Both the position numbers and the translations under genes were made by a program. 64,000 bases of DNA from NCBI GenBank assembly GCA_003280105.1, contig QCFX01000003.1:1-64000 (forward strand), in the 5' to 3' direction. Numbering within the stretch: the stretch's first letter is position 1; every line of letters begins with the position of its first letter. The notes under the pieces were generated by a model. That model had not been told where the DNA came from. It did no database searches and was given only the letters and a program-made list of their open reading frames with translations. Below are positions 18,029 through 19,994 of this stretch, one piece after another. Origin of the DNA: Prochlorococcus sp. AG-363-N20. GTDB taxonomy: Bacteria > Cyanobacteriota > Cyanobacteriia > PCC-6307 > Cyanobiaceae.

Positions 18029-18113
18029 GGAGGGGTGGTCGAGTGGTTGATGGCTCTGGTCTTGAAAACCAGCGACGTGAGAGCGTCCGTGGGTTCGAAT
18101 CCCACCCCCTCCG
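18029..18113 (+). tRNA. tRNA-Ser (anticodon UGA)
   Basis: Folded by eye. The acceptor stem GGAGGGG pairs with CCCCTCC, the anticodon stem CTGGT/ACCAG encloses CTTGAAA with anticodon TGA, there is a long variable arm, and the T-arm is GTGGG-TTCGAAT-CCCAC. The discriminator base is G and CCA is not encoded. It reads UCN serine codons (UCA). tRNA genes are common integration sites, and the following 1.3 kb looks accessory. Confidence 0.96.
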
Positions 18114-18481
18114 CCTCAAAAAACAATCAAGTCTGTTGCATTTTCCAGGAAAGGGCTCTTAGGCTATTCCTTACTTTATATATATTCAAAGCAAATCAGA
18201 GGTACGAGAAGCATTGCTACGATTGGATTTCAGAGAGTGTTTTATTTATATTATTGAAAAGATGAAAAGGCTAGGCTGGAACTTAAGACTCTAAGGGCAT
18301 GAAAATGCCGATCATTTTTGCGGAAAAATAACCAGTGAGGTACAGACCTAATCGCACATAAACGAAAAAAACATCATCCCAAAACCCGACCCGACAAGGG
18401 CTCGCGTAGAACTCAAAATGCTGAATCCAGGAAGACCCTATAGACACTCTATAGACATTCCCTATAGATTCGTTATTATTA
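18114..18481. other. Gene-free region between tRNA-Ser and the RHH-like gene
   Basis: 368 bases with no ORF of worth. It holds a short GGCAT-GAAA-ATGCC hairpin near 18296-18309 and, at its right end, three CTATAGA repeats. No copy of the tRNA 3' end (a possible attachment-site remnant) was found here by eye. Confidence 0.6.
18438..18468. promoter_or_regulatory. Three CTATAGA repeats, possible operator
   Basis: CTATAGA occurs at 18438, 18449 and 18462 (spacing 11 and 13 bases, about one helical turn), ending 14 bases before the TTG start of the RHH-like gene. Each contains the palindrome CTATAG. Such spacing fits binding by several ribbon-helix-helix dimers. The alternative is tandem -10-like hexamers (TATAGA). 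Confidence 0.45.
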
Positions 18482-19021
18482 TTGCATGCGATTAGATCTA
18501 TCGTGAGAGAGTGGGAAAAACTGGAAGGAGATTGGATTAAAAGGACTTCACTGCCTTCTGATCTCTCGAAATGGGCGATTGAAACAATAAGCCAAAAAGC
18601 TCAAGACCTCCATGACCTAGATGAAGTGTCACAGGATAAAGAGCATGTGGCGACAGAGAGGGAAAGCAATAACGAAGCTTTAAAGGTATTAAAAAAAAAT
18701 ATCAAGAATGCATTTACAGCTAGAGAGAATGCTCTAGATGATTTAAGTCTTAATGCCCCTAATTCATACAAGCTTCAAATATCTATACCTTCTAACTTGA
18801 ACTATCTCATGAAGGCATGGGCAGCAGCCGAAGGAAGAGATCTCTCAAGTGTTGCATTGCAATGCCTAGAGACCGGACTAAGAGAGATGAAGGGGAAAGG
18901 CTCTATTCCAGCTGCTGCGTTAAGGCGATATGACAATGCTTGCGAAAAAAGAATCGCCTTGGCAGAAGTAAATCATTTATGGGAGGCATACGAAAACCTT
19001 CACAGCAAAGGAGGTCCTTAA
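18482..19021 (+). CDS. Ribbon-helix-helix-like DNA-binding protein with coiled-coil N-terminus
   Basis: A 179-residue charged protein. Residues about 1-95 are long, mostly helical and heptad-like. Residues about 97-135 read as a strand (YKLQISIPSNL) plus two helices (NYLMKAWAAAEGRDL and SSVALQCLETGLREM), the layout of a CopG/Arc-type ribbon-helix-helix domain. There is no ATG: the start is TTG at 18482 or GTG at 18503. It is followed after three bases by the GIY-YIG-like gene, whose ribosome site lies in its last codons. The domain call is by eye and should be treated as an inference. It could act as an autorepressor. Confidence 0.65.
   Translation: MHAIRSIVREWEKLEGDWIKRTSLPSDLSKWAIETISQKAQDLHDLDEVSQDKEHVATERESNNEALKVLKKNIKNAFTARENALDDLSLNAPNSYKLQISIPSNLNYLMKAWAAAEGRDLSSVALQCLETGLREMKGKGSIPAAALRRYDNACEKRIALAEVNHLWEAYENLHSKGGP
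19007..19015 (+). promoter_or_regulatory. Perfect Shine-Dalgarno inside the end of the upstream gene
   Basis: AAAGGAGGT lies 9 bases before the ATG at 19025 and within the last codons of the RHH-like gene. Most other starts in this window have weak or no Shine-Dalgarno. It implies translational coupling of the pair. Confidence 0.8.
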
Positions 19022-19024
19022 TTC

Positions 19025-19435
19025 ATGAATTACAAATTAATAGAAAAAGCTTTAACTGCTCCAGTAATTCAATCTATATCTGGAATATCGTTGTTAACAA
19101 AGAATGATGAGATGCATTTAAATGGCTTTTTATATACTGCATACAACAATTCAAGTCATATGTTAAGAATAGGTTTCACTCGTGATGAAGATTTTGCAAA
19201 AAGAATTACCAGAGGTAAAGGCGCCAACTTTATTCATCATAGAAAAGGTTCAATAAGAGAAGAGAGGCTTTTAAAGTTAACCTTGTTAGAATTGGGCTTC
19301 TGCCCAGAAAAAAATACAGATGCATATACCTTTTCTTTTGGTTTAATTAAGCATTTGAAAGCTTTGGGCTGGCCAACAGGATCACTAGGCGAAGAGATGT
19401 ACAGTTCTTCAAATTACAAAAAGGAGTTTAATTAA
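19025..19435 (+). CDS. GIY-YIG-like (MUG113/T5orf172 type) protein
   Basis: A 136-residue protein. The segment GFLYTAYNNSSHMLRIGFTRDEDFAKRI followed by GSIREERLLKLTL fits the pattern of the MUG113/T5orf172 branch of the GIY-YIG fold: a strand ending in K/R-I-G-x-T-R, an Arg in the next helix, and a later Gly...Glu helix. Those residues are candidates for the catalytic Arg and metal-binding Glu. The fit is by eye and remote. Together with the preceding RHH-like gene it forms a two-gene unit near tRNA-Ser. It may be a nuclease of a mobile or defence-like module; no integrase is present. Confidence 0.6.
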   Translation: MNYKLIEKALTAPVIQSISGISLLTKNDEMHLNGFLYTAYNNSSHMLRIGFTRDEDFAKRITRGKGANFIHHRKGSIREERLLKLTLLELGFCPEKNTDAYTFSFGLIKHLKALGWPTGSLGEEMYSSSNYKKEFN

Positions 19436-19535: not shown

Positions 19536-19994
19536 ATGAAAGCAATTAATGTTTACTTTCGCATATTATTAAGCCTCATAATATCAATCAATCTAATCAC
19601 ATTCATTTCATTCCCCAGGAAGGCTATGGCCATAGACTCTGTGAGCCTTAAGAATATATCTAAACTGGAAAATAAAATCGCTAAGAATTATTCATCTAAA
19701 TTCTGCAATGCAATTGGGATAGGTATCTCAAAGGATGGAGCAATGAAACTTTCAATAAATGAAAATTTAGATCCTAAATTTAACAGCTCTTTGTGGTTAG
19801 AACTTGCATTTTCAGGCAAAGAGAATCTCAAGAAAATAAATAAAGAAGATTTAGCAGAGAAAATCTCGGAAAATGTTATAAGAGATTGCGGGGCTGCCAT
19901 AGGGCTTTCTGGCCAAAATGGTGAGGTCAAATTTAAAGAGTATTTTGTCTCTATTAGAGATATCCTTGAAAATTCAAAAAATTCTAATAATTGA
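19536..19994 (+). CDS. Secreted protein of unknown function
   Basis: A 152-residue protein from ATG 19536; the track's TTG start eight codons upstream is less likely. The N-terminus MKAINVYFRILLSLIISINLITF is a signal peptide or anchor, ending near SFPRKAMAID. The mature part has two cysteines (FCNAIGIG and RDCGAAIG) that could form a disulfide bridge. It is Lys/Ser/Asn-rich and mostly helical. Function unknown; it lies alone between the accessory pair and SemiSWEET. Confidence 0.7.
   Translation: MKAINVYFRILLSLIISINLITFISFPRKAMAIDSVSLKNISKLENKIAKNYSSKFCNAIGIGISKDGAMKLSINENLDPKFNSSLWLELAFSGKENLKKINKEDLAEKISENVIRDCGAAIGLSGQNGEVKFKEYFVSIRDILENSKNSNN

Follow-up and report, generated by a model that had tools for sequence, protein, structure and literature searches.

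The question raised by this locus is what kind of system is formed by two small genes that stand behind a tRNA-Ser(UGA) gene in a Prochlorococcus genome. In the window, i.e. the whole stretch of 64,000 nucleotides that was analysed, ORF analysis yields two adjoining plus-strand reading frames with ends at 19021 and 19435. The tRNA gene upstream of them, already named in an initial annotation of this DNA, is called by ARAGORN (Table 1). The initial annotation read the first protein as a coiled coil plus a CopG/Arc-like ribbon-helix-helix (RHH) and the second as a nuclease-like partner from the T5orf172/MUG113 branch of the GIY-YIG superfamily; it considered the pair as a possible remnant of a tRNA-targeted element. 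A literature search found no paper on this gene pair. Very few regulatory proteins are described from Prochlorococcus (PMC2518516). An uncharacterised regulator-like operon that nearly all near-complete genomes of two main genera carry clearly invites study.

Table 1. Features of the locus and their positions in the window.
Feature	Position	Strand	Basis and remarks
tRNA-Ser(UGA)	18029..18115	+	ARAGORN; landmark; hotspot of insertions in relatives, unoccupied in the window
Operator-like array, four 11-bp units AATCCAGGAAG ACCCTATAGAC ACTCTATAGAC ATTCCCTATAG	18424..18467	+	Periodicity and model match
Array boxes, imperfect AGANTCT type	18433-18439, 18444-18450, 18455-18461, 18466-18472	+	
Putative -10-like hexamer TATTAT	18474..18479	+	Sequence; directly 3' of the array
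Gene 1: helical N-terminal region and likely Arc/MetJ-like RHH core	18503..19021	+	172 aa; GTG preferred, TTG 18482 possible
Gene 2: predicted T5orf172/GIY-YIG-fold protein	19025..19435	+	136 aa; in most family members probably without catalytic activity

The sequence of gene 1 offers no ATG start. The TTG at 18482, from which the initial annotation had counted the gene, sits immediately behind the -10-like hexamer. The protein that begins with the GTG at 18503 (MREW...) aligns with the ATG starts of relatives (MERSW..., MKKSW...), and the match of the family profile to gene 1 starts at the same position. The two-gene pair stands as annotated, except that the start of its first gene is most likely GTG 18503 and not TTG 18482. 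Residue numbers of gene 1 are counted from TTG 18482 throughout; in this numbering the RHH core covers approximately residues 92-163.

The pair is a conserved, near-core chromosomal operon of Prochlorococcus and marine Synechococcus. Of the 251 genomes in the family sample, 62 contained gene 1 and 60 contained gene 2. Both genes gave tblastn matches in 51 of the 60 fetched loci, and in 4 more loci gene 2 was found by profile only; in these 55 loci gene 2 always follows directly after gene 1, in the same order, with a gap of a few bases or with overlapping stop and start codons. Among near-complete genomes, gene 1 occurs in 21/23 of the HL-like genus and in 18/19 of the Synechococcus-like genus g5. 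The pair is not universal, since in genus g35 it was found in about 16-17 of the 24 near-complete genomes and is absent from 7-8 of them. Three loci of genus g32 (L089, L095 and L101) have a homologue of gene 2 but neither gene 1 nor, upstream, the 11-bp array described below. Outside the family there were only weak generic matches. The surroundings are also conserved: a pentapeptide protein and a GMC oxidoreductase are syntenic downstream across Prochlorococcus, and nrdJ and the tRNA-Ser gene are syntenic upstream in many genomes. For gene 1, phage records (50,697), viral contigs (2.9 million) and plasmids (72,556) were searched without a match, and the same phage records gave none for gene 2.

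The tRNA-Ser(UGA) gene is a site-specific insertion hotspot in the relatives, and it is empty in the window. Among the loci, 0.3 to about 9 kb separate the tRNA from gene 1. Exact copies of the 3' end of the tRNA gene, 28-45 bases long, occur in L119 (G200), L124 (G213), L130 (G233) and L133 (G242), 2.1-5.8 kb upstream of gene 1; shorter and less clear copies are present in L107 (26 bases) and L111 (13 bases). The window contains no repeat of the tRNA-Ser 3' end. With these repeats placed ahead of the pair, on its tRNA side, the inserted DNA stops before the pair and the pair is outside the element; in a tycheposon or other tRNA-targeted element it would be enclosed by the tRNA on one side and the repeated tRNA end on the other. 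The idea that this tRNA serves as an integration spot is correct for four relatives, but it does not extend to the window or to the pair itself. The reading of the pair as a remnant of such an element is contradicted by the position of the repeats and by the same syntenic place of the pair in nearly all near-complete relatives; a place shared with relatives in the manner of core genes had been named beforehand in the initial annotation as evidence against it. As a side observation, the cargo of the insertion in L133 includes, as judged by eye, a GspE/PilB-like ATPase and a related shorter ORF.

A feature that was absent from the initial annotation is an array of 11-bp repeats, which overlaps the start of the interval 18438-19435 described there. 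In the window alone the self-similarity at lag 11 (0.48) is the best of lags 5-30, with p=0.002 when compared to dinucleotide shuffles. At lags 11, 22 and 33 the self-similarity reaches z=18, 11 and 6 in 32 Prochlorococcus-type promoters and z=19.6, 14.3 and 13.0 in 22 Synechococcus-type promoters; these sets hold related, non-independent sequences, and a reduced representative set gives the same peaks. Lag 11 was best in 38/54 loci, as compared to 10/303 control upstream regions from the same loci. The consensus units of the arrays of the two clades, AATCTATATAG and AGTTACTCCGG, share a common register of AG-NNN-CT boxes, which take the form AGANTCT in most Prochlorococcus and AGYWRCT in Synechococcus. 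Boxes of both types are 7-bp pseudo-palindromes and are placed exactly 11 bp apart, i.e. about one helical turn; the arrays hold about 4-8 of them. In a distant relative (L087) boxes of the form AGAATCT...AGAATCC are 22 bp apart. The -10-like element follows immediately behind the array, so that a repressor bound to the array would cover the -35 region, and an alignment of the promoters from relatives has TATNATA at a similar distance from the array.

The array is near-unique, with one strong array per genome among the 33 genomes that were searched with whole-array models (18 with the Prochlorococcus model and 15 with the Synechococcus model; 150 first-look candidates scored per genome), a type of model that could miss single or paired boxes elsewhere in the genomes. 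Both models match the operon's own promoter in every genome searched. For the Prochlorococcus model these matches have E values from 1e-12 to 2.7e-4, with modest scores in G062 (2.0e-4) and G003 (2.7e-4); apart from one non-self match at E=2.5e-4, which was rejected (see below), all others were at 1.8e-3 or weaker. The Synechococcus model matches the own promoters with E values from 5e-11 to 6e-5 and the next non-self site near E=0.1; in 10/10 held-out g35 loci, each of which also has gene 2, it found the array. In the window the match covers 18424-18479 (E=5.5e-10; next best in its own genome E=1.9), a score that is not independent since the window helped to build the model.

The rejected match comes from a single HL genome, where it is flanked by a CobO-like gene and by ntcA. 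After a check of 28 genomes it was discarded, because most of the other HL genomes do not retain its AGAATCT box and because the site belongs to a different conserved palindromic element. This element, ACACTATATGCAGTGT followed by ATACTGCATGTAG, is conserved in the shared promoter of the CobO-like gene and ntcA in HL genomes (L199-L212) and is apparently unrelated to the RHH boxes. Recurrent weaker matches near 1.5 Mb in HL genomes were also set aside; they are inside coding sequence and look like conserved codons.

The protein that might bind these boxes is the product of gene 1. It has a coiled-coil N-terminus followed by an RHH-like core with the pattern K97-L-Q-I-S101-I-P103 and two helices with GR and S..Q motifs, which we take to be reminiscent of the Arc repressor. 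Invariant across the family are K97, S101, P103, W113, G118-R119, S123 and Q127. Profile searches gave only sub-threshold matches, namely to phrog_582, an 'Arc-like repressor' (E=0.07), and to RHH_5 in 4/28 family members (best E=0.019); neither protein of the pair reached a curated threshold in any profile search, and sequence-profile searches of the PDB with both families returned no match, including none to MetJ for gene 1. A monomer model of low confidence shows helices at 104-117 and 121-139 and no strand for the ribbon. Taking together the residue pattern, the weak profiles and the architecture of the operator, the core of gene 1 is likely an Arc/MetJ-like RHH. The initial view of this protein as a coiled coil with an RHH domain is in this sense likely right, even though the Pfam comparison proposed along with it stayed below threshold and the model lacks the ribbon.

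A comparison of the two clades suggests how such a protein could read its boxes. At strand position 99 the Prochlorococcus-type proteins have Q and those of the Synechococcus type have T, with K97 and S101 constant in both; in the boxes the AG...CT ends are fixed and the inner bases change from A..T to Y..R. Because the constant residues go along with constant ends and the variable residue with variable inner bases, the sequences suggest that K97 reads the AG/CT ends of the box and residue 99 the inner pair. The pair hence offers a natural experiment on the joint change of an RHH protein and its operator.

Two well-studied RHH repressors have features in common with this arrangement. MetJ dimers bind to tandem pseudo-palindromic met boxes, AGACGTCT, which also have AG...CT ends, and the K-x-T in the DNA-binding strand of MetJ resembles K97-L-T99 of the Synechococcus-type gene 1. 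However, met boxes are 8 bp long, follow each other in 8-bp steps and control many promoters, whereas here the boxes measure 7 bp, the steps 11 bp, and each genome has a single strong array. Arc from phage P22 is a small RHH protein with a GR..S...Q pattern and an operator of two half-sites with an 11-bp step; it resembles gene 1 in its short core, in this pattern, in the step and in the weak phrog_582 match. It differs in that gene 1 is near-core and chromosomal, has about 4-8 boxes and is followed by a partner gene.

The partner is the faster evolving of the two proteins. The RHH core is near-invariant and gene 2 is fast-evolving, with mean identities of 98% for the core versus 77% for gene 2 in HL, 87% versus 54% in the Synechococcus type and 81% versus 30% in the low-light types. 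Gene 2 contains the motifs G34-F-L-Y37, R48-I-G50, R60/R63 and E79. Its AlphaFold model (pLDDT 78) matches viral T5orf172, Bro and GIY-YIG proteins in BFVD (E ~1e-4, probability 1.00), and the predicted order of hairpin, helix, strand and helix is that of the T5orf172/MUG113 branch of the GIY-YIG superfamily; the same model found no fold match in the PDB. The T5orf172/GIY-YIG fold of gene 2 is thus supported by the model, as the initial annotation had supposed. Pfam did not return the families expected there: gene 2 has no Pfam match, and no GIY-YIG family was among the matches of 28 family members. A kinship with uracil-glycosylase inhibitors, which came up with a SAUGI Pfam match in 2/28 members (best E=0.003) and with p56 in the PDB list, was rejected because the T5orf172 fold match outweighs it.

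The fold does not imply that gene 2 is a nuclease. The candidate catalytic Arg positions 60/63 are not conserved in the family and are lost in most members, which makes this label doubtful. In addition Tyr37 is replaced by Phe in 12/22 Synechococcus-type sequences and Glu79 by Asp in 11/13 HL sequences, so that a non-catalytic role becomes more likely; the copy in the window retains Tyr37, Arg60/Arg63 and Glu79. Gene 2 also differs from T5orf172/MUG113 proteins in a conserved C-terminal L..LGWP.G motif. From these replacements gene 2 is probably a non-catalytic, regulator-like partner, and of the 'nuclease-like' description in the initial annotation the fold is retained and the activity is doubtful.

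The best explanation for the locus, and one that we consider reasonably probable, is a dedicated autoregulated RHH operon with a non-catalytic partner of GIY-YIG fold. Dimers of the gene 1 protein would bind side by side on the 11-bp ladder, one per 7-bp box. They would thereby sit over the -35 region of the promoter that drives the operon itself; cooperative binding would repress the operon. Gene 2, presumably translated from the same message as gene 1, may contact the gene 1 protein or the DNA and would most likely tune, release or extend the RHH-DNA complex rather than work as an endonuclease. A cyanobacterial RHH repressor that is autoregulated, at its own -10 region, is known with TrcR from Anabaena (all0854; PMC10272220), and gene 1 would resemble it in this respect. 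According to the available text of that report, TrcR differs in having an 8-bp consensus and multiple targets, is missing from Prochlorococcus, and is described without a GIY-YIG partner (PMC10272220).

A wider reading, rather unlikely in our view but to be kept in mind, is that of a lineage-specific, near-core nucleoprotein system. Here the RHH protein on its one array and a pseudo-nuclease would act in chromosome organisation, as a new core toxin-antitoxin (TA) system or as a phage-sensing switch; the joint change of box sequence and recognition residue between the clades forms part of this reading.

It is unlikely that the pair is a domesticated or addictive type II TA-like module, with an RHH antitoxin that represses its own operon and a GIY-YIG-fold toxin, which is kept because its loss is lethal or because it acts against phages. 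The pair does consist of two small genes with coupled reading frames, the RHH gene first and the small partner second, with a multi-box operator-like site at the shared promoter, and a conserved DNA-binding protein next to a fast-evolving effector would fit as well. Of the seven TA families known at the time, none turned up in Prochlorococcus (PMC2518516), so that a new TA would have gone unrecognised. However, the patchy or mobile distribution that is typical of, though not strictly defining for, type II systems is not seen: the pair is single-copy, syntenic and near-core, and the phage, plasmid and viral-contig searches gave no match. The loss of the candidate Arg in most members and the replacements of Tyr37 and Glu79 also speak against a toxin, and a toxin should not tolerate the state of the few g32 genomes that have gene 2 without gene 1.

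A chromosomal cis-site system, in which the RHH protein coats the array as ParR does parC and gene 2 serves as adaptor in chromosome organisation or segregation, is quite improbable. The parC repeats of plasmid R1 are 11 bp long. In the type II plasmid partition system ParR-parC, as far as the available account describes it, an RHH protein occupies direct repeats of ~10-11 bp at the promoter with one dimer per repeat (PMC5016525), and direct repeats of this size at the operon promoter, one strong array per genome and a near-invariant RHH core agree with this design. But the pair is chromosomal and has a GIY-YIG-fold partner, and neither a ParM-like motor nor a conserved motor-sized gene was seen beside it in the comparison of neighbours. 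Moreover, ~4-8 boxes are equally suited to a strongly autorepressed operon, and some near-complete g35 genomes manage without the pair.

Very improbable is a working sequence-guided endonuclease, in which a catalytically active GIY-YIG partner would be guided by the RHH protein to the boxes or to DNA that enters the cell as an invader. The T5orf172 fold and the residues that the window copy has kept would allow it, but across the family the candidate Arg positions are not conserved and Tyr and Glu are replaced in many sequences. A mobile element targeted to tRNA-Ser, of which the pair would be a remnant or the cargo, is hardly credible: the site does host insertions in four relatives, but their repeats leave the pair outside, the window has no repeat, and the conservation of the pair and the synteny of its downstream genes are high.

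Some further observations concern the surroundings of the operon. Downstream of gene 2, at 19539-19994, the window has an ORF of 151 aa whose N-terminus appears hydrophobic and for which Pfam gave no match; its relatives (39-54% identity) occur in three loci only (L083, L105 and L122). Gene 1 is often located at 42-57% of the record length in single-contig genomes of g5 and g35. Provided that these records begin at the origin, the gene is possibly near the replication terminus, a position that could be plain inherited synteny. If G174 is MED4, the small RNA Yfr13, reported at complement 621601-621701 (PMC2518516) and thus at about 621.6 kb of that genome, lies ~0.55 kb upstream of the array.
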